From Litorilinea aerophila (GTDB taxonomy: Bacteria; Chloroflexota; Anaerolineae; Caldilineales; Caldilineaceae): a stretch of DNA of 40,335 bases. The notes under the pieces were generated by a model that saw only the letters and a list, made by a program, of their open reading frames with translations, made no database searches and had not been told where the DNA came from. The translations under genes and the position numbers were made by a program. The DNA is taken from the NCBI GenBank assembly GCA_945897075.1, contig CAMDEX010000019.1, positions 1-40,335 of the forward strand, given 5' to 3'. Numbering within the stretch: the stretch's first letter is position 1; each line of letters begins with the position of its first letter. Shown here one piece after another: positions 6,496 through 39,031 of the stretch.

Positions 6496-9400
6496 TTCCC
6501 CCCGCGCCTGCGCCAACTCCGCCCGCAGATCCGCCAGCCGGGGCGCGTCCGGTTGCAGCGCGGCCGCGGTCGCGATGGCGACGGCGGCTTCATCGAGACG
6601 GCCCAGTTCGATGAGCGTCCCGGCCCGGTTGCGCTGCCACATCGCAAAGCCGGGCTGCAAAGCGCAGGCCCGTTCAAAGGCGGCCAGGGCCGCGGCTTTG
6701 TCGCTCGCGTCCAGAGCGTTGCCCAGCGTATTGTAATCCGCGGCCACCCGACCGCGCAGCGCGGCCCAGTCAATGCCGGGCAACTCTTGCGCTTCAGCGG
6801 CCAGGAGTTCTTCGCCCAGCCGGGTGATGGCCTGCCACTCGTCCGGCGTGGGCTTCTCCGCATCTGCGGCCTGCAGGCGCGCCTGATAGTCCTGCACTGT
6901 CTGGGCAAAGGCGGCCAGCCTGGCCCGATCCCCGTCAGAAAGCGCAGCGGCCGCGGCGGTCTGTTGCAGTTGGCGGAAAGCAGCCAGGCGCACGGCCAAT
7001 GCTTCGGCTTCGTCGTCGTGGCCCTGGGAACGGGCCTGGGCGACCAGCGCTTCTACACGCTGGGCGAAGGGTTCTTCCATCTCCGTGGGCAGGGCGCGGT
7101 AGAAGTCCAGCATCTGCTCGCTGTCTGCGATGCGGGCGAAAGCAGCCAGCAGGCCGGCCAGCACAGTTTGTGCCATCGCCTCCAGGTTTTGGGAGGCTTC
7201 CCCCCGGTTCTCGGCCAGAAAACGCAACCGCCGGTATTCCTCACGCATCCCATCCACAACCGGATGAGCGGCGTAGCCGCTGCTATCGGCTACGGCGAAG
7301 GCAGCTTCATACTTTTGGAGCGCCTGGGCACTGTTTTCTTGCGATGCCTCCAGCCGCGCCTGGCTGACCAGCGTATTGATCAATCCGCCCGGTTCCCGTT
7401 CCAGTTGGTAGAGTTGCAGCGCGGCGTCGTAGTGCCCCCGGGCCGCCTCGATATTCCCCAGTCGTCTCTCCAAATCCCCCAGACTCTTCCGGGTGTTGGC
7501 TGTCCCCAGACGATCCTGCTCTGCGGCAAAGAGGGGCAGGGCGGCGTCGTAGTGCCCCCGGGCCGCCTCGATATTCCCCAGTCGGCTCTCCAAATCCCCC
7601 AGACTCTTTCGGGTGTTGGCTGTCCCCAGACGAGCCTGCTCTGCGGCAAAGAGGGGCAGGGCGGCGTCGTAGTGCCCCCGGGCCGCCTCGATATTCCCCA
7701 GTCGGCTCTCCAAATCCCCCAGACTCTGAAGGGTGTTGGCTGTCCCCAGACGGCTGCCACTGATAGCAGCCGCGTCCAGTGCGCTCTGCAACCAGTCGCC
7801 CAGCTGTGTGATGCGACCGCGGTTGCGCATAAAATCGGTCAATACCCTGACCAGTTGTACTGAACGCGCTGGGCTATACTCGTTGCACCAGGCAAAGGCG
7901 TTTTCGATCTGCGCGAACTCCGCTTCTACCTGGTCATCACGCCGGGGGGAAGCATCGTAGCAGGCCTGGGCCAAGGCCAGGTAGTGGTCGGCGTGGCGCT
8001 GGGGGAGGCGCAGACGTTCTTCCTCGTCCTGCAGGCTGAGGGCGTAGGCGCGCAGAATGGCGTGCTGTTGCCAGCGGCTGCGCTGCGCAAAGCCGGCCAG
8101 GGATTGATCGGGCGCAAAAGCCACCTCCTGCGCCAGCCCCAGCCCGTCCAGGGCCAGCAAAAATTCCTGGGCTTGGGCGTCGTCGATCTGCCAGAGGGCC
8201 GCGGCGGCCGCGTTGTCGAAGTCGGCCTCCTGGGCAAACGCGCCCAACCCGCGCAACCAGCCCTGCTGCTGTGGGCCGCGGCTGCCCTGGCCCAGCAGGT
8301 CATAGCTATAGCCCAGGGCAATCTCCACTTCGCTCACCCGCTCGGCCTTGTCCATACGCGGCAGATCGCCAAAGCCCCGGCCTTCGCGCACCCGCTGCAG
8401 AATTTCGTGCCCGGTCTCGGCAAAGCGCTGGCTGCCCCGTGTGTGCAGGGCAGCCCCGGCCAGGTTGAGGGCCTGGGCGTGGCAGCCCAGCCCCTGCGCC
8501 ACCTGATCGGCCAGATCGTCGGGCAGACCGGGGGCACGCTCTTGCAGGAGCAGGCGGGCGTCCTTGTCGCTCAGCACATCCAGCCGCTGAATAGCCTGCG
8601 GGCTGCGGGCCAGGGCATAGGCCACGTCGTAGTCGCGGGTGGTGAGGAGGAGGGCGGCTTCCGGCGGCGCGGCCGCGGCCAGTTCTGCCGCCACCTCTTC
8701 GCTCCACACGTCGTCGCACACAATCAGCAGACGCCCGTGGCCGGCCAGCAGCCCCTGCACGGCCTGCGGGCTGAGCATACAATTCTCCAGCAGCTTCTGG
8801 GCCTGGATGGGGTCGGCGTAGGCGTGGGCGGCCAGACTCTGCAATTCAGCGGCCAGATCCGTTTGCGTGCGTTTGGCAGGGCCGACAGTCAGCCAGATGA
8901 CGCCGCCCGGATAGTCGTCGGCGTGGCGGGTGGCATACAGCGCGGCCAGGACAGTCTTGCCGATGCCCGCCATCCCGCGCACAGCGGCCCGGTCCGCGCC
9001 GGCGGGGGCTGCGCCTTTGCCCACCAGCGCGGCCGCCTGTTGCCCGGCCAGGCGGCGGTGCAGTTCGGCCAGTTCGCTCTCCCGGCCCACCGCGCTCTGC
9101 GCCAGTGCGGGGCGGGTCTGTTGCGGTCTGTGCCAGCGCAGGGCAATCTCGCCCACATTGACGATATTGAAGACGGTTGCCCCCGGCCCGATGGCGCTGT
9201 TGACGGCGCTGACGACAGTCAATTGTTGCCCGCGCTCCGGGACAACCGCGCGCTGCTCGGCCCGTTCCAGCCAGCCGCTGTGGGGCTGCTCCTGCCAATC
9301 TGTGGCGGCCGCAGCCCGGCGCAGGGGGCCGCCGGCGCGCTGGCGCATGGCGGCGTTCCACAGGGCCAGGCGCGCGGCCAAACGTTCGGCAGCCGGGGCG

Positions 9401-10350: not shown

Positions 10351-10363
10351 TGTGAGATGCTCG

Positions 10364-11332
10364 ATGCCACAGCCCTTCAACCAGCCAACCCAACTGCCCC
10401 AGGCGTGGCGACAGACGCCGGTGACGGTCGTCATCCCCACCTACAACGAAGCGGAGAATCTGGCCGCGATCAGCGAAGCTGTGTTGGGGCTGCATCTGCC
10501 CAGTCTGCGCCTGCTGGTTGTAGACGACAACTCGCCGGATGGGACAGGGCAGATCGCCGACGAGCTGGCGGCCCGTTTCAACCGGAACGGCGCAGCGCGT
10601 ATGGGCGTTCTGCATCGCGTGGGCAAAGGCGGTCTGGGCACGGCTTACGTGGCGGGGATGACCCAGGCCCTGGCCGAGGGCGCGGAATTTGTGGTGCAGA
10701 TGGACGCGGACTTTTCCCACTCCCCCAGCTATATCCCGGCAATGCTGGGCGTCATCCTCGCCACCGGCGCGGATGTGATTATCGGCAGCCGTTACGTGCC
10801 CGGCGGCTCCCTGGACGAGGGCTGGAGCTGGTGGCGGCGTTTTCTGAGTTGGTGGGCCAATCTCTACAGCCGTACACTGCTGGGTATTCGTGTGCGCGAT
10901 ATGACAGCGGGCTTCAAACTTTGGCGGCGTGCGGCGCTGCTGGAGATCGGTCTGGAAAATATCCGCAGCAACGGCTACATCTTCCAGGTGGAGATGGCCT
11001 ATCTGTGCGAGCGGCTGGGCTACCGCATCATTGAAGTCCCCATCCATTTTGAGGACCGGCGCATCGGACACAGCAAAATGGACATTCCGGTCAAGCTGGA
11101 ATCGGCCTGGCGGGTGTGGGAACTGGTGTGGCGGCACAGAAAGCGAAGAAGCGTTCAAGCGTTCAAACGTTTGAACGCTTCCCCGCTTGAACGCTTCTTC
11201 GCTTCTTCGCTCTGGTGTTCCACCGTATATGAAACGTCGCCCCGATCTGCTCTCTCTACTTCTGCTCATTCTCCTGCCCCTGCTCTGGTTTGGGCCGGTG
11301 CTCTTTACGGGCAAGACGCTGCTGCCCTATGA
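10364..11332 (+). CDS. GT2 glycosyltransferase, polyprenol-phosphate mannose synthase-like
   Basis: The frame encodes 322 residues. Residues 1-250 match dolichol/polyprenol-phosphate mannosyltransferases: [24 protein letters not shown], the DXD-type [20 protein letters not shown], then [17 protein letters not shown]. It would transfer a sugar from a nucleotide donor to a lipid carrier at the inner face of the membrane. Known enzymes of this type end near the WELVWRHRK segment. Here the frame has no stop there and runs through an inverted repeat and on into the next gene in another frame for 104 nt, so the last 70 or so residues look acquired. I chose the ATG at 10364 over a GTG at 10352. Confidence 0.88.
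11141..11204. repeat. Nested inverted repeat of GCGTTCAA words
   Basis: Outer arms of 21 nt (11141-11161 and 11184-11204) are perfect reverse complements. A 20-bp palindrome (11159-11178) is nested between them. The element sits where the GT2 domain should end and removes both its stop codon and a ribosome site for the next gene. Confidence 0.85.
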
Positions 11333-14300
11333 CAACCTCTACACTTTTGAACCCTGGCGCTCGCTCCAGCCGGGGCTGATCCCCCACAACAATCTGCTCA
11401 GCGATCTGGTGTTGGAAAACGCGGTCTGGAAGCTGCACATCCAGCGCACGTTGGCAGGCGGTGAAATTCCCCTGTGGAATCCCCAGATTTTCACCGGTAT
11501 CCCCTTTCTGGCCGCGGGCCAATCCAGTGCGCTCTATCCGCTCAGTATTCTCTTCTATCTTTTGCCCCTGGACGCGGCCTACGGCTGGTTCACTGCGCTG
11601 CAACTGGCGCTGGCGGGCATCAACGCTTATCTGCTGGGACGGGCGCTGCGTCTGCGCCCGGTGGCCGCGCTCTACGCCGGGGTCGTCTTTCAGTTCAGCG
11701 GCTTTCTGATCGTCAGCGTCGTCTTTTCGATGGTCATCGCGGCGGCCGCCTGGCTGCCCCTGCTCCTGGCGATCATCGAGCAGATCATCCGCAAGCAGGA
11801 GGAGAAGGGCGCGGCCAGCTTCCGGCCCATCCCCTATCTGATCGCGGGCGCGGCGGTCATCGGTCTGACTGCCCTGGCCGGCCACCCGGAATTTTTCTAT
11901 TACACACTGCTGGTCGCCGGGATGTACGCCGCGGCCCGGCTGCTCATCGCGTGGAGACGGATAGCGACGCAGAGAAATCTCCCGCAGAGGCGCAGAGACG
12001 CAGAGGGGGAGACGGCAGACAGCGGACAGCGGACAGATAGCGCAACCCGCAACCCGCAACCCGCAACCCGCATCACAAAACTCGCCGTCTGGCTGCTCGT
12101 CCTCGCTTTGCTCGGCGTCGCTTCCGGCGCAGTGCAGATTTTGCCTCTCTTTGAACTGGTCAACCTGAACTTCCGGGAGGGTTCCGCTTTTTACGATCAG
12201 GTGGTGGGCTGGGCCTGGCCCAGCCGTCACATCCTCACATTTTTCCTGCCCGACGTTTTCGGCAACCCCAGCCATCACGTCTGGTTCGACCTGTGGAATC
12301 TGCGTTGGGTGCCGGCGACGGTCAACGCCCTGGGGGAGAAAACGGACACAATTTTCTGGGGCATCAAAAATTACGTCGAAGGCGGCAATTACGTCGGAGT
12401 GTTGACGTGGCTATTGGCGGCTGTGGGAGTTGCAAGTGGCATGTGGCAGGTGGCAATGTCTCGCCGCGACCAGTCGTCCGCCGTCCGTCGTCCGTCGTCG
12501 GCCCTGCCACCTGCCACTTTCCACTTGCAACTTGCCACTCCCACCTTTCTATTCGCCGCACTTGCCCTCCTCTCGCTTCTCTTTGCCTTTGGTACGCCAC
12601 TCTACGCCCTGCTCTTTTACGGCTTGCCCGGCTGGAATCAGCTCCACAGCCCTTTCCGCTGGGTCTTTCCCTTCACGCTCAGTATGGCGGTGCTGGGGGG
12701 GATTGGGCTGGAGCAACTGCTGCGATTAGGGATTGGGGATTGGGGATTGGGGATTGGGCGGTTGCGCGTCACTGCCAAATATCTACTATCTAATATCTCG
12801 ATTTTGTTCGTGGCCGCAGGCATTGCCCTCCTCTCAATCGTCCTTGCGAGCTATTTCTTCCCCGCCCCCTTCCTCGCCCTGGCCCAGCGGGTGATTGACG
12901 GCAGCGATCTGGCGCGTATGGCCTTCGCCGATGGCCGGATGTTCTGGGGCTACCAGAGTGTGGGGCTGCTGAAACTGGGCACGTTTGCGACGTTAAGTGG
13001 TATTGTCGTCTGGCTGCTTAGACGACGGACGACGGACAACCGACCGCAGACCGCGCAATTCGCAATTCGCAACTCGCAACTCGCAACTCGCCTCGGCGTC
13101 TTCGCTGTAGCCATCGTCTTCCTCGATCTTTTCGCTGCGCACGGCACATTCAACCCGGCGACCGATCCGGCCCTCTCGCCCCTGCGCACTGTGCCGCCTG
13201 TCGTGCAATTTATCAACCAGCGCGAGGGACGGACGACCGACGACGGGCGACCGACGACGGAATACCCAATATCCAATATCCAATACCCTCCCTGGCGTTT
13301 TACGACGTTTGATCTCCCCGGTGCCAAAACCTTCAACGCCAATGTGGGGATGTATTACGGCTGGCAGGACATCCGCGGCTACGATTCGATCATCCCCAAG
13401 CAGTATGTGGCGCTGATGAGCCGCATCGCCGACCAGCGCGGCGAGCTGCTCTACAACCGCATCGCGCCCCTCTACGCAACGGGTATCTCCCCCTTCGGCC
13501 TGAACAATCCGCTGATCGACCTGCTGGGCGTGAAATACGTTTTTTCTGAGCAACCTATTCCCGATGTGGCGGGGTGGATGGAGATTTACCCCCACCCAAC
13601 CTCCCCCACTGTGGGGGAGGGGCAGAATGCGCTGCGTGTTTACGAGAACAGCGAAGCCTTTGCACGGGCTTTCATCGTCCAACAGGCGCTGGTGACGCCC
13701 GCGGACCGTCAGCCGATACTGGAGATGGACTTGCGCCGTTTTGTCTTTATCGAGGAGACGCCCGCCGATGCCAACGCGCTGATCCCCGCCAGCCCGCAAC
13801 TGGCCGAGGCGACGATCAGCCGCTACACCGCCAACAGCGTCTTTGTGGATGTCAACCTGAGCGACCGGGGCTGGCTGGTGCTGGCCGACGCCTATTTGCC
13901 CGGCTGGAAAGCCTATCTGCGCCCCTTTGGCGGCGGCGAAAATCAGGAAAGCGAACTGCCCATCTACCGGGCCAATGGCAGCCTGCGCGCGGTCTATCTG
14001 CCCCGCGACGGCCAATGGACGGTGCGCTTTGTCTACAGCCCGCTGAGCTTCAAACTGGGACTCTACATCAGCTTTCTGGCCGGGATGACCGGGCTGCTGC
14101 TGCTGCTCTGGTGGCTGTGGGGGCGCTACTACCGCCCGGCGGATGCGGGCGATGAAATGGGCACCGTCGCCAAGAACTCTCTCGTACCGATGGGATTGAG
14201 TCTCGCCAACAAAGCGATTGACTTCGCCTTTGCGATGCTTTACGTGCGTCTGCTGGGGCCGGAAGGGACGGGGAAATATGCCTTTGTGGTGGCGGTCTAC

Positions 14301-15659
14301 GGCTTCTTCGAGATTGTGAGCCGCTACGGGCTGGGCACACTGCTGACCCGGGACGTGGCCGCGCACAAAGAACAGGCCAGCCGCTATCTGACAAATGTAC
14401 TGGCCCTGCGCACGCTGCTCTGGCTGGCGAGTCTGCCCGTGCTGGCGCTGGTCACGGGCGGCTACTGGTTTACCGGCAGCATCGGCGTCCAGGAAATCCA
14501 GGCCATCGCCATCTTTGGCGTGGCGATGCTCTTCGCCAACTGGGCCGACGCCTTCAGCAATCTCTTCTATGCCTACGAAAAGATGGAATATCCGGCAGGG
14601 CTGAGCAGTGCGGTGGCCCTGCTCAAGGTGGCGCTGGGTGCGCTGGTACTGCTGCTGGGCTGGGGATTTGTGGGGTTGGCCGGTGTCAGTCTGCTGATGA
14701 ATCTCATCCAACTGCTCTGGCTGGTCGTGCTGGTGCGCCGGACTCTCTTGCGCCCCGTCTGGCGTTGGGATTGGCCGTTGCAGCGCTGGATGTTGGGCGA
14801 GAGCGGCCCGCTGATGCTCAACCACCTGCTGGCGACGATCTTCTGGCGCATTGACCTCTGGATTCTGCGCCCCCTAGCCGGGGCCTTCAGCGTGGGCATC
14901 TACAGCGCATCGCTCAAGTATTTGGACGGGCTGAATATCATCCCCAGCACCTTCACCTTCGCTATCTTCCCGCTGATGAGCCGCTACGCCAAGCGCGAGG
15001 GGGAGGGGCTGCTGCGCTCGTATGTGCTCAGTCTGCGCCTGCTCCTGCTGGTCAGCCTGCCCCTGGCGTTGACGGTCACCGCGCTGGCCGAGCCGCTGAT
15101 CTACATTCTGGGCGGCGCAGAATTTCTGAATGTGCCGGATACTGTCATCCTGCTGGGCCGGGAGATCAGCTACCGGGGCGGTTCGGCCCTGGCTTTGCAG
15201 GTGATTATCTGGTCCATCCCCATCGGCTTTGTCAATTCTGTGACCCAATACGTGCTGATTGCGGTCAACCAGCAGCGCTACCTGACCTGGGCTTTCATTC
15301 TGGGCGTCGTCTTCAATGTGGTGGGCAATCTGCTCGTCATCCCCCGCTTCGACTACATCGGCGCGGCGCTGGTGACAATTCTCTCCGAGTTCAGTCTGCT
15401 CATCCCCTTCTACTGGAGCGTGCGCCGCCATGTGGGGCGGGTGGCGTGGGGCGATCTGCTCTGGCGGCCCGTCGTCGCGCTGGGTGGGATGGCGGCGACG
15501 ATCTACGGGCTGACGGGCGCGGGTCTCTCCGTCTGGCTGGCGGTGGGGACGGGGTGGATCGTCTACGCGGCGATCTTCGCTCTGCTTGGCGGCTTGCGCG
15601 GCGAGGAGATGGCGCTGGTGGCGCGGGCGCTGCCACTGGGGCGCTGGTGGCGGGGCTGA
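11229..15659 (+). CDS. YfhO-like membrane protein fused to a Wzx/MurJ-type flippase
   Basis: A 1476-residue protein with over 20 membrane helices. Residues 1-960 resemble YfhO-type proteins (GT-C-like): [33 protein letters not shown], many helices, then a large soluble part ending in a helix ([18 protein letters not shown]). From about residue 975 ([13 protein letters not shown]) it becomes a polysaccharide flippase: [20 protein letters not shown] and [10 protein letters not shown] are typical. The two parts are normally separate proteins; the reading frame through the junction is uninterrupted. The GT2 upstream suggests lipid-linked glycan assembly and export. At least five low-complexity stretches lie in frame in the YfhO half. 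The ATG at 11229 begins a typical membrane anchor but has no visible ribosome site. Confidence 0.85.
12006..12078. repeat. In-frame low-complexity insert 1 in the fusion gene
   Basis: Tandem GACAGCGGACAGCG followed by CGCAACCCGCAACCC. It codes for a Arg/Thr/Gln-rich loop between membrane helices that has no likeness to the rest of the protein. A preceding stretch (11975-12005) of GCAGAGGCGCAGAGACGC words may belong to it. Confidence 0.8.
12436..12545. repeat. In-frame low-complexity insert 2 in the fusion gene
   Basis: AGTGGCATGTGGCAGGTGGCAA pairs with CCACCTGCCACTTTCCACTTG downstream, enclosing GTCCGTCGTCCGTCGTC tandem words. The coded loop is Ser/Arg/Pro-rich. Confidence 0.8.
12724..12805. 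repeat. In-frame GATTGGG repeat (insert 3) in the fusion gene
   Basis: Four GGGGATT units at 12724-12759 code for [11 protein letters not shown] short AATATCTACTATCTAATATC word repeat follows at 12778-12798. The G-tracts fit a G-quadruplex motif. Confidence 0.8.
13019..13096. repeat. In-frame low-complexity insert 4 in the fusion gene
   Basis: GACGACGGACGACGG and ACCGCAGACCGCG words followed by CGCAATTCGCAATTCGCAAC units, falling between two membrane helices. Confidence 0.8.
13222..13290. repeat. In-frame low-complexity insert 5 in the fusion gene
   Basis: GGACGACCGACGACGGGCGA words followed by ACCCAATATCCAATATCC words. The same CCCAATA words occur in the gap at 27928-27952. Confidence 0.8.
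13600..13620. repeat. CCTCCCCCAC palindrome inside the fusion gene
   Basis: Perfect 10-nt arms around a single T. The coded segment is [12 protein letters not shown], an apparent loop in the soluble part. Confidence 0.7.
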
Positions 15660-24545: not shown

Positions 24546-25862
24546 TCAGGCCAGGAAAGCGGCGAAGACCTGATTGCCCAGCATCAGCCCGCGTTGGGTC
24601 AGGTAGACCCGTTCGCCGTCCATCTGTAGCAACCCCTGACCGTGCAGCCGGGCCAACTCAACGGCAAAAATATCCTCCATCTCCACGCCGTGACGACGGC
24701 GGAAGCGCGCCCGGCTCACCCCCTCCTCCACCAGCCGCAGCCCCAGCATCATCGTTTCCCCCATCGCGGTGCGACCGTCAATCTCCTCCCAGAAATCAAC
24801 CACCGACTCGCCCGCCTGCGCACGGGCGATGTAGCCCGGCACAGGCTTGCGGTTGCTCCAACGCAGACCCACCCCGTCTGCTGTAGGCGTAGCCGTGGGA
24901 TGGGCAAAGGGCAGCCGCAGATGGCTGTGCGCACCCGGCCCCACGCCGATATACTCCTGGTTGCGCCAGTAGAGGAGGTTGTGGTGGCAGGGGAGCGGCG
25001 ATTGGGGACTGGGGACTGGGGACTGGAGACCTGGGGTGTCGTTGCTTTCCGATCCCCAATCCCCAATCCCCAATCCCCTTCTTGCCCAATTGGAAACCTC
25101 ATACTGTTTGTATCCCGTCCCCGCCAGCCGGGTGATGGCCGTTTCGTATAGTTCACCGGCCAGATCGTCGTCAGGGGCAGGAACGCGGCCCGTCTCGACC
25201 CAATGGAAGAGGGGCGTCTCTGGCTCGACGATCAGACTGTAGAGGCTGAGATGTTCGGGGGCGAGGGCGATGGCTTTTTCCAGGGTGGCGGCCCAGACCG
25301 CGGGGGACTGGTTGGGCAGGCCAAAGATGAAGTCCAGGTTGATATTCTCGAAACCCACGGCGCGGGCCGCGGCGTAGGCACGCGTCACGTCATCCACCGA
25401 ATGGATGCGCCCCAGAAAGGTTAACTCGTCCGCGTCGAAACTCTGCACACCCATACTCAGCCGGTTGACGCCCAGCCCGACCAGCCCGGCGAATTTGGCC
25501 TGATCGACTGTGCCGGGGTTGGCCTCGCTGGTGATCTCGCAGCCGGGGGCGAGGCGAAAGCAACGCTGGATCGTCTCGAAAATCTGCGCCAACTGGGGCA
25601 GGCTGAGGACGGTGGGTGTGCCGCCGCCCACAAAAATTGTACGAATCGTGCGCCCGTCGATCCGCTCTGCCCACATCGCCAATTCCACACAGAGCGCGTC
25701 TACATAGCTCTGAAAGAGATTGTCCAATTTCGCATAGGTATTAAAATCACAATAGGGGCATTTCTTTTCGCAGAAGGGGATGTGTACGTAGATCCCCAGC
25801 GGCTCATCCGACACTCTATCTTCGCTTTTCTGCGCGTCTCCGCGCTCAATCTTCTCCATCAT
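24546..25862 (-). CDS. hemW: Radical SAM heme chaperone HemW
   Basis: A 438-residue protein of the coproporphyrinogen-III-oxidase-like family. The radical SAM cysteines are in IPFCEKKCPYCDFNTY, followed by TIFVGGGTPTVLS, SEANPGT and RLSMGVQSFD. These are HemW traits; HemW hands heme to respiratory proteins and does not itself act as the oxidase. The C-terminal HemN-type domain is present (RTAMGETMMLGLRLVEEGV). Between VSNWARRG and CHHNLLYWRN, adjacent in other HemW proteins, there are about 28 extra residues coded by the GATTGGG repeat. Possible starts are ATG 25862, ATG 25859 and GTG 25814; the first follows GGCGGAGA. Confidence 0.92.
   Translation of the reverse strand: MMEKIERGDAQKSEDRVSDEPLGIYVHIPFCEKKCPYCDFNTYAKLDNLFQSYVDALCVELAMWAERIDGRTIRTIFVGGGTPTVLSLPQLAQIFETIQRCFRLAPGCEITSEANPGTVDQAKFAGLVGLGVNRLSMGVQSFDADELTFLGRIHSVDDVTRAYAAARAVGFENINLDFIFGLPNQSPAVWAATLEKAIALAPEHLSLYSLIVEPETPLFHWVETGRVPAPDDDLAGELYETAITRLAGTGYKQYEVSNWARRGLGIGDWGSESNDTPGLQSPVPSPQSPLPCHHNLLYWRNQEYIGVGPGAHSHLRLPFAHPTATPTADGVGLRWSNRKPVPGYIARAQAGESVVDFWEEIDGRTAMGETMMLGLRLVEEGVSRARFRRRHGVEMEDIFAVELARLHGQGLLQMDGERVYLTQRGLMLGNQVFAAFLA
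25009..25080. repeat. In-frame GATTGGGG repeat inside hemW
   Basis: CGATTGGGGACTGGGGACTGG and, 40 nt later, CCCCAATCCCCAATCCCC pair as an inverted repeat within the reading frame. The length leaves the frame intact. Confidence 0.88.
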
Positions 25863-25898
25863 TCTCCGCCGCCACTCGCAACTCGTCATTCGCCACTC

Positions 25899-30545: not shown

Positions 30546-30899
<354 letters not shown>

Positions 30900-34640: not shown

Positions 34641-34702
34641 GAAACGTGAAACGTGAAACGTGAGATTACCGCCTGTTGTTCACGTTTCACGCATCACGTT
34701 TC
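34641..34702. repeat. ACGTGAAACGTG inverted repeat between atpG and atpD
   Basis: GAAACGTGAAACGTGAAACG pairs with CACGTTTCACGCATCACG 20 nt later. A relative lies between atpD and atpC. Confidence 0.85.
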
Positions 34703-37657: not shown

Positions 37658-39031
37658 TCAAGGAGTGGGTATGCCTTGCCGTGCATTATCCAATGCCGTT
37701 TTGCACCATAAAAATTGCGACTGCACATCCAACTTCACCCCTTCTTCGAGTGCAGCGATAGCGGAAGCGAAATCGCCTTTCTTGGTATAGGTAATACCCA
37801 TAACACAATAGGCATAGGGAGATGGGTCCAAGCTGATGGACTTTTGGTAATCGGCAATAGCTTCGCTGAATTTGCCCCCATCCGCATAAACATTGCCACG
37901 CCCAACGTAAGCACCGGCGAAGTTTGGGTCAAGCTCAATCGCTTTGCTGTAGTCGGCAATTGCCAAATCGTACTGGCCCAGTTCCCTGTAGGCACTACCG
38001 CGAGTGAAATAGGCATTCTTATACGCTAGGTCAAGCTCAATCGCTTTGCTGTAGTCGGCAATTGCCAAATCGTACTGGTCCTGTCCCCAGTAAGCAATAC
38101 CGCGATTGAAATAGGCACCCTTATCCGTTGGGTCAATCTCAATCGCTTTGCTGTAGTCAGCAATTGCCAAATCGTACTGGTCCTGTCCCCCGTAGGCACT
38201 ACCGCGATTGAAATATCCTTCTTTATGCGGGTGCAGGTTTAACGCTTCACTATAATCGGTAATTGCCAAACCATATTCGCGACTCCAGACATAAATATTA
38301 CCGCGCCACATGAGGGCTTCCCATGGATTGATGGCACCCGTGCCGGTTTCACGGGCACTATCAATAGCCTGCGTAAAAAACTTCTGGGCAATTTCTGTTA
38401 CGCCCAGTTGAAATTGCATCATCCCCAATGCAAAAAAGGCGGTATAACCAACCTGGGCCGGAATTTCCCGAGTAAAACGGATGACAAAGCTTTCTGGGGT
38501 AGCCAGGCTGAACTCGGGCGATTTGGGGTTGGCCAACCTGATTTTATCTTTATCCAGCTCGATAGCAGGTTCAGCCCCAATCTGGTCGTACCAACCCCAA
38601 ATCAAGAGTGTAGCGCCGTAAGCTTTTAGCACCCGATGGGCCTCGGCAGTGTCTTTTATGGAAACGTGATACTGCTCTACGCGTAATTTAATGTTTTGCC
38701 CCGGTAGTTTTTCCGTAATCAAATTGTAGATGCGCTGGGCGGGATCGATATTTACTCTACTACCAGCCCGGTTGTCGAAATCGGCTATGACAAGAAGGGT
38801 CTCATCGGGCGAGGCGACGGAGAAGGCAACGGGCGTGGAAAGAGGACTAGGCGTAGGCAGCAGCGACGGACCCACTGAGATGGCTAAACCCGTCAGCACA
38901 AAACCAATAGCAATAGAGATTGCTCCCACAACCAAAGCCCAACCGGGTATTTGAATAATCGCCTGGAGAACATTCTTGACGATACCACCCTCTTTGGCAG
39001 TGATGTTCTGTGAATTTTCAGAGTCAGACAT
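37658..39031 (-). CDS. Membrane-anchored TPR protein
   Basis: A 457-residue protein. A membrane helix spans about residues 30-53 (GWALVVGAISIAIGFVLTGLAI). A Pro/Ser-rich linker follows, then a domain near 75-190 (LLVIADFDNRAGSRVNIDPA and ATLLIWGWYDQIG) that resembles the N-terminal domain joined to TPRs in TolB/adenylate cyclase-like proteins. Six or seven TPR units fill 205-445, with the pattern YDLAIADYSKAIELDP. The domain topology puts the repeats outside the membrane. Base composition is less GC-rich than in the neighbours, hinting at transfer. The start codon at 39031 is 25 nt from the end of the upstream gene, so the two form one unit. Confidence 0.87.
   Translation of the reverse strand: MSDSENSQNITAKEGGIVKNVLQAIIQIPGWALVVGAISIAIGFVLTGLAISVGPSLLPTPSPLSTPVAFSVASPDETLLVIADFDNRAGSRVNIDPAQRIYNLITEKLPGQNIKLRVEQYHVSIKDTAEAHRVLKAYGATLLIWGWYDQIGAEPAIELDKDKIRLANPKSPEFSLATPESFVIRFTREIPAQVGYTAFFALGMMQFQLGVTEIAQKFFTQAIDSARETGTGAINPWEALMWRGNIYVWSREYGLAITDYSEALNLHPHKEGYFNRGSAYGGQDQYDLAIADYSKAIEIDPTDKGAYFNRGIAYWGQDQYDLAIADYSKAIELDLAYKNAYFTRGSAYRELGQYDLAIADYSKAIELDPNFAGAYVGRGNVYADGGKFSEAIADYQKSISLDPSPYAYCVMGITYTKKGDFASAIAALEEGVKLDVQSQFLWCKTALDNARQGIPTP
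37937..38240 (-). repeat. 102-bp tandem TPR-coding repeats
   Basis: Three near-identical units with a 102-bp (34-residue) period share TTTGCTGTAGTCGGCAATTG. This is again a sign of recent unit duplication. Confidence 0.88.

Follow-up and report, generated by a model that had tools for sequence, protein, structure and literature searches.

G-rich heptamer repeats are already known in bacteria, and so are convergent pairs of them in Xanthomonas. The GGGAATC repeats of Xanthomonas and the GGGGA(T/C)T repeats of Nostoc are described as spread genome-wide and mostly intergenic, with an intragenic share of 7–11% in Xanthomonas and about a third in Nostoc; close convergent pairs number 70 and 75 in two Xanthomonas genomes and are few in Nostoc (Rehm et al. 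2015, PMC4692102). The TAACTGA repeats of the Beggiatoaceae consist of one word, lie mostly near start codons, and form 169 direct sets and one indirect set (PMC4679880). A study of short satellites in prokaryotes places Chloroflexus aurantiacus among the satellite-rich bacteria and suggests a local origin by duplication errors (PMC6749651). Repeats inside genes have been described in other systems as well. The Rickettsia palindromic elements are a family of 105–146 bp inserted as a unit (PMC2229807), and the fast-evolving tandem repeats of Borgs, which are extrachromosomal archaeal elements, occupy both gaps and ORFs, often those of membrane or extracellular proteins, the ORF units being direct repeats whose lengths are multiples of three (PMC9879509). 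In yeast, template switching between the arms of inverted repeats homogenises the arms and changes the protein, as described for 39 genes (PMC8604942).

In this work, we have analysed a window of 40,335 nucleotides, contig C19 of a genome (G000) whose assembly is listed with 8.8% contamination, together with a sample of 439,607 nt (440 kb, about 7% of the genome) and with related genomes. Our results show that heptamer repeats form a system spread through G000 and some of its relatives, the nearest named of which are mostly Caldilineaceae. The element that we take as basic, called here a dipole, would consist of G- or purine-rich tandem heptamers, a short spacer, and C- or pyrimidine-rich tandem heptamers; many arrays stand alone.

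Results

Repeat sites in the YfhO half of a fusion gene

The window carries a gene in which YfhO is fused to a polysaccharide flippase, with six low-complexity repeat stretches (sites A–F) in the YfhO half. The repeat features of the window are:

11141..11211, no strand assigned: inverted repeat in the gap between the GT2 glycosyltransferase gene and YfhO (GT2-YfhO gap), purine-first (AAGCGAAG.../...CTTCGCTT); dipoles of other words occupy the same gap in relatives
11229..15659, + strand: YfhO (PF09586)–polysaccharide flippase (PF01943) fusion gene, recognised by its Pfam domains, its ORF and near-full-length matches in relatives
11983..12072, + strand: site A, CGCAGAGG three times (11983-12006), GACAGCG words (from 12018), CGCAACC 4.6 times (12041-12072)
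12428..12539, + strand: site B, absent from the earlier annotation, TGGCAGG-type words, GTCGTCC (12473-12499), TGCCACT/TGCAACT (12505-12539)
12724..12758, + strand: site C, GATTGGG five times
13021..13091, + strand: site D, GACGACGG words (13021-13035), then CGCAATT/CGCAACT (13054-13091)
13228..13288, + strand: site E, GACGGACGACCGAC, then AATACCC/AATATCC (13261-13288)
13600..13620, + strand: site F, CCTCCCCCACTGTGGGGGAGG palindrome, within a 30-nt insertion
24546..25889, - strand: HemW-like gene (radical SAM and HemN_C domains), with an in-frame heptad dipole at 25003-25036 and 25052-25078
30546..30623, no strand assigned: dipole of GATTGGG (5.9 times) ... CCGCTCCCCAATCC, overlapping no called gene
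34641..34690, no strand assigned: GTGAAAC dipole (GTGAAACGTGAAACGTGAGA, variable loop, TCACGTTTCAC), overlapping no called gene

The words that a first-pass annotation of this DNA had named in the YfhO half are found where it had placed them. The likely start of the fusion gene is ATG 11229, the listed ORF (11187-15659) opening at TTG 11187. All the repeat sites lie in a single open frame of 1490 codons, and no internal stop was found in the orthologous matches to the gene among the matches listed, in agreement with the earlier claim that the repeats keep the reading frame. The YfhO-flippase fusion is common to the orthologues, and 19 of the 32 named loci related to the gene are labelled Caldilineaceae, the remainder mostly Anaerolineae or Chloroflexi. 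The orthologue alignment takes in 22 of 30 loci, those left out being eight broken or partial matches. The repeats of the YfhO half are far above chance: runs of period 7 or 8 cover 174 nt of it, where 300 synonymous-codon shuffles gave 2.4 nt on average and never more than 37 nt, and 0 nt of the flippase part. At site B the first and last arrays are complementary, and a GACGACGG-type word lies on the reverse strand at 12485.

The first-pass annotation had set the repeats in loops between membrane helices. This agrees with the AlphaFold2 model of the product (mean pLDDT 67.5) for sites A–D, predicted at connections of hydrophobic helices and partly overlapping helix ends, but not for sites E and F, which the model puts in the beta-rich C-terminal part and not between membrane helices. 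Stretches with pLDDT below 50 lie within the connections at A, B, D, E and F.

Two further observations concern the window. The glycosyltransferase ORF of the window (10352-11332) reads across the inverted repeat of the gap (11141-11211) and, in another frame, into the start of YfhO; the glycosyltransferase stop codon lies ahead of or inside the GT2-YfhO gap in the eight relatives compared. Loss of this stop, and with it a longer glycosyltransferase in G000, may be due to the dipole. Two long tandem repeats, with periods of 120 and 102 (96% and 90% matches), occupy 7416-7752 and 37927-38215; these periods, unlike heptads, are whole codon multiples.

Loop lengths in orthologues

The repeats had also been read as inserts in an otherwise shorter gene, with alignment proposed as the way to find insert-free forms. 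At sites A–E the alignment gave instead unrelated sequence of broadly similar length in the heptad-free relatives: in the repeat-free orthologues outside the genus (13 of 22) the median lengths of loops A–E are 39, 27, 29, 34 and 19 residues, against 37–74, 35–40, 26, 21–31 and 15–29 residues in five genus members. Since the loops at C and D are no shorter without heptads, nothing was added there, and a slight lengthening is possible at A, B and E. Insertion of a discrete unit at A–E is rejected on these lengths. Site F, with 13 residues in all five genus members and 3 in all 17 other aligned orthologues, appears as the sole clean insertion among A–F, of 10 residues. Identity in the loops is 0.49 against 0.86 in the rest of the protein within the genus, and 0.29 against 0.72 in the heptad-free relatives. 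Heptads occur in YfhO of 8 of the 22 orthologues, a distribution that needs 4 changes on the tree, at least 3 of them forced by well-supported branches; this gene has several times gained or lost its repeats.

Seven and three have no common factor, so that a heptad array is read as one and the same cycle of seven codons whichever the frame, and what a gene then needs is a total length of 3n and the absence of a stop. The consensus word is open on the sense strand in 35 of the 37 period-7/-8 arrays in called genes (0.78 for a random heptamer at 60% GC); among 59 intergenic arrays, both strands are open in 37, a single strand in 19 and neither in 3. A total length in multiples of three would be enforced by selection.

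Heptads across the genome

Period 7 accounts for 119 of the 202 exact tandem runs in the 440 kb (5 in one Markov-1 shuffle), followed by period 8 with 37 (3) and period 9 with 15 (3), and 48 different heptamers are behind the 119 period-7 runs. Strict period-7/8 arrays number 112: called genes contain 42 of them and have 10 more at their edges, and the other 60 are intergenic. Their density per 100 kb is 66.6 in intergenic and 12.0 in genic DNA, heptads thus being under-represented in coding DNA; these densities are inflated, since contigs C7–C9 of G000 and the stretches of G017 and G020 were picked on earlier hits there. Genes were called by codon usage on 20-kb pieces, and a few carriers are weak or edge-cut (e.g. 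L072:1-787). Arrays are carried by 17 of the 328 called genes; 9 have at least two and the fusion gene has 8. The units in genes are mostly of 7 nt, also of 8 and 14 (14 in one of 21). Nine carriers looked up in Pfam are a HemW-like radical SAM gene, a second radical SAM gene (its C-terminal domain Elp3-like), a DUF3417/phosphorylase, a UDP-glucose dehydrogenase, a molybdopterin oxidoreductase, a second YfhO, two PMT-type genes (one matched at the curated cut-off only) and an O-antigen ligase (Wzy_C); from the Pfam domains and motifs we take the first two to be HemW and Elp3-like. In the DUF3417/phosphorylase (L078:160-2721), a conserved enzyme with an array, the heptad-encoded stretch stands directly before IAYFSAEFGLH.

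Exact copies of GGGGAYTGGGGAYTGG number 391 in G000 (overlapping copies counted; reversed control 0). Among 11 genomes, G006 has 395, G017 370, G004 4, and G007 and G019 none; 36 of 199 genomes of the class carry any. Many G000 words lie outside the GGGGATT/GGGGACT/GGGAATC consensus. The first-pass annotation had held that the gene contains the same words as the intergenic gaps. This is true of GGGGATT, which the 440 kb contain as 38 exact double copies, 14 of them outside called genes, but for the other words it is rather a class of words that gaps and gene share: double copies outside called genes are 1 of 4 for CGCAACCC, 1 of 3 for CGCAACT, 0 of 2 for GACGACGG, 0 of 1 for CGCAATT and 0 of 1 for CCAATATCC, while the full CCTCCCCCAC palindrome is outside in 0 of 2 and its half in 1 of 7. 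The coding and intergenic lists have 12 words in common. Related repeats do exist elsewhere in the genome, being spread through the whole sample.

Other repeats accompany the heptads. A REP-like fixed palindrome family, GTAGGGGCGCTGCTTGCTGCGCCCG, with GTAG at one end (L063:2175-2271, L065:11244, L071:5790), is distinct from them and has many hits in G001. In G017, heptad arms flank apparent intrinsic terminators, with a GC-rich stem and a T run (L134:2559, L140:16534, L143:8866), and TCGAGTATCGTGTATCGAGTAT arms recur around different cores.

Polarity of paired arrays

We compared 107 pairs of adjacent arrays from 7 genomes: the G-first order is found in 81 and the C-first order in 7, and 19 are flat. 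Because G-first/C-second is its own reverse complement, this order holds on both strands. Non-complementary pairs are equally polar (41 G-first against 3, summed over five sets), so that the polarity is not a by-product of hairpins. It should not arise either from the hit-based choice of stretches alone. In inverted repeats with arms of at least 18 nt the 5' arm is purine-rich in 49 and purine-poor in 10. With 310 arrays oriented G-rich, a G-skew (up to +0.35) fills the 60 nt upstream, a C-skew follows from 20 to 100 nt downstream (down to -0.29), and beyond it the skew is about zero, a profile that is that of the dipole; downstream of 133 isolated arrays the C-skew is weak. A complementary partner lies within 250 nt of 53 of 148 arrays, against 59 of 1480 random controls.

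Turnover of words between species

The words of congeners differ in the GT2-YfhO gap and in the loops of YfhO, the second YfhO, HemW and UDP-glucose dehydrogenase. The end words of site A are CGCAACC in G000, CGCAATT in G006 and G005, and CGCCCCT/CGCAATT in G001, with no clear array in G002; at site C the loop length is constant over five congeners and the words have changed. In G000, G001, G002, G005, G006, G017 and G020 the gap contains paired arrays in purine- or G-first order; they are of several word types, one of which is shared by G001 and G002, and no paired arrays were seen in this gap of the relative at L212. In HemW, the dipole occupies the loop between YEVSNWA and CHHNLLYW. Before CHHNLLYW a G-first dipole is present in 5 of the 6 genus members in which the gene was found, and it is degenerate in G004; within the genus its words differ, and mostly its lengths too. 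Elsewhere the loop has 13–22 residues and no heptads in 15 relatives, and five to seven in G013 and G017. The HemW matches L103 and L104 (of G002 and G001) show one internal TAA each in the search listing; as neither frame is interrupted in the heptad loop, the TAA lies elsewhere. The UDP-glucose dehydrogenase dipole, compared in genomes other than G006, is present in G000, G001, G002 and G005, while G004 has a short loop and G017 the right half alone.

At three sites of constant length, words were replaced in register: same-phase differences are in excess at period 7 (28 against 14.9 expected, 153 against 95.1 and 20 against 9.2), as judged by permutations that, here and for the arms below, treat related species as exchangeable. 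Periods 5, 6 and 8 show no excess and period 9 a weaker one. Word sharing, compared by regular expressions that caught some sites in only some genomes, is 0.258 for the same site across genomes (63 pairs), and 0.090 for different sites of one genome (137 pairs) against a background of 0.087 (541 pairs). Genome-wide homogenisation of words was thus not found at intragenic sites, yet whole-genome counts differ strongly, GGTGGCAG having 111 copies in G000 and 0 in G001 and G005, and GCGAATT 2 in G000 and 51 in G006. The complementarity of arms is 0.100 within an element (n=49) and 0.049 between species (n=308; permutation P 0.0002), the gap of two species (L191, L203) taking in the first YfhO codons in this test. 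The arms change together mainly at the gap, B, D and HemW, and not at A, E and the UDP-glucose dehydrogenase site.

Discussion

We propose, with a probability of about 0.55, that the replication machinery makes the dipoles in place, in DNA under weak constraint, and goes on rewriting them there. Strand slippage would homogenise the units within an array; the polymerase would stall at a G-rich template arm, and the nascent strand would fold back on the G-rich arm just made and copy it, by quasipalindrome template switching. A stall would follow the first arm in the G-first order alone, which would explain the polarity of complementary pairs, and the non-complementary ones may be older pairs whose arms have drifted apart. 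Arrays in genes would survive where loops tolerate almost any sequence, and a benefit to the protein would not be required. The spacers of 39 dipoles are unrelated (a common substring of at least 8 in 3 of 741 pairs, against 2.07 expected); together with words that are shared by site and with the joint change of arms, this favours making and rewriting in place over moving. The first-pass annotation had suggested an active process that makes or moves the repeats; making, in gaps and in genes, is upheld by words that differ between congeners, and moving as units is not.

Several results sit less well with rewriting in place: hints of amplification in trans, arms that do not change together at three sites, few complementary partners, the weak C-side at isolated arrays, the excess at period 9, and the lack of decay from inside to outside, no difference having been found between inner and outer copies where the newest were looked for at the dipole centre (0.359 against 0.366, P 0.41). 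The GTGAAAC dipoles, too, have a constant design, 3 of 18 loops sharing TCACACGAC at differently flanked loci, with 9 of the 18 fetched for being convergent pairs; similarity in 53 of 153 loop pairs is inflated by arm bases in the captured loops and is unused as evidence. Given this constant layout and the genome-specific word counts, part of the set probably arose with some copying in trans. In-place rewriting also gives no reason for a unit size of seven bases.

The alternative closest to the first-pass annotation is in-frame insertion of mobile palindromic elements, like the Rickettsia palindromic elements or RAYT/REP, followed by their decay. The dispersal of copies in their hundreds, the lineage-specific words of these copies, the common layout of the GTGAAAC dipoles and their shared loop 9-mer, the clean insertion at site F, the presence of GTAG-led palindromes and of Y1 transposases in 30 of 41 genomes would all suit such elements, which we nevertheless consider unlikely, because the 39 spacers are no more alike than shuffles, loops A–E are broadly as long without repeats, and words follow the site and not the genome. 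The GTAG at one end of a fixed palindrome that marks GTAG REP/RAYT was not seen in heptad dipoles by eye. Nor do Y1 counts visibly track abundance: G020 has one weak Y1 hit and 321 GGGGAYT copies, and for G016, with seven Y1 hits, the comparison is with 17 first-look candidates to the HemW query, against 432 in G000. No clear relation to a Y1/RAYT agent emerged from these counts.

Polarity and spacers would also follow if a polymerase extended both 3' ends of a double-strand break with G-rich heptads and the ends were then joined. The G-first/C-second order would follow by construction, non-complementary pairs would be covered directly, and short unrelated spacers would fit. Against this speak the absence of any sign of newer copies near the centre, the joint change of arms within an element and, in a search for candidate enzymes that covered Ku and Y1, the absence of Ku from 41 genomes (of 14 control genomes, Bacillus subtilis alone scores), on which Ku-dependent end joining was rejected; we regard two-sided extension as improbable. 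We give equally little credit to selection on the protein or the mRNA for useful heptad loops, hairpins or G-quadruplexes. Such selection would be consistent with the recurrence of YfhO heptads in several lineages (8 of 22 rows, 4 tree changes) and with the nature of the carriers, which have at least four hydrophobic segments in 7 of 17 cases against 24 of 246 (P 0.0014), an enrichment uncorrected for the greater length of the carriers (median 626 against 343.5 aa); on the other side, neither words nor peptide are conserved, as the loop identities above show, and like arrays occur in gaps and in unrelated enzymes. Over a mobile element we favour a local mutational process, which we infer to combine slippage with hairpin template switching.

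A bolder idea, which we offer tentatively, is that a lineage-specific, direction-aware DNA synthesis, a "heptad writer", might turn weakly constrained stretches of gaps or genes into G-first/C-second dipoles. If this is true, it would be a fast, local and frame-compatible way of inventing loop peptides, and the polarity rule would be its signature, extending to the convergent pairs of Xanthomonas. What appears to be a mutational process writes new peptide into loops of conserved enzymes, with the frame kept open. The polarity rule, the joint change of arms and the inheritance of words by site narrow the mechanism, and the origin of heptamer repeats becomes testable.

How does this system compare with those already described? 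In open-licence PMC papers we found no report of polarity in non-complementary pairs or of intragenic word turnover. We saw neither inverted pairs nor polarity in the text on short satellites in prokaryotes, from which the word "inverted" is absent (PMC6749651). The repeats of the Beggiatoaceae are likewise heptamer arrays with a patchy distribution across phyla (PMC4679880). As with the Rickettsia palindromic elements, palindromic DNA lies here in frame in conserved protein genes; in contrast to what is described for that family, there is no shared spacer, the GTGAAAC dipoles being a partial exception, and repeat-free loops of similar length exist at A–E (PMC2229807). Borg repeats, as described, differ from ours, whose units of 7 bases are not divisible by three and are paired G-first (PMC9879509). 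In yeast, as here, the arms of one inverted repeat become alike, although the events described there are at ordinary short inverted repeats, and the present system has many tandem heptad arrays (PMC8604942). The closest likeness is to Xanthomonas and Nostoc. The account of these genomes gives one word family for each, whereas we find 48 words, and polarity in non-complementary pairs and the replacement of words at fixed loops within conserved genes belong, as far as that account goes, to the present system; the seven-base unit, tandem units far above chance and the word GGGGATT/GGGGACT are common to them and to G000, and the close convergent pairs of Xanthomonas have the same order as the G-first pairs described here, no divergent ones having been seen in that account (PMC4692102).
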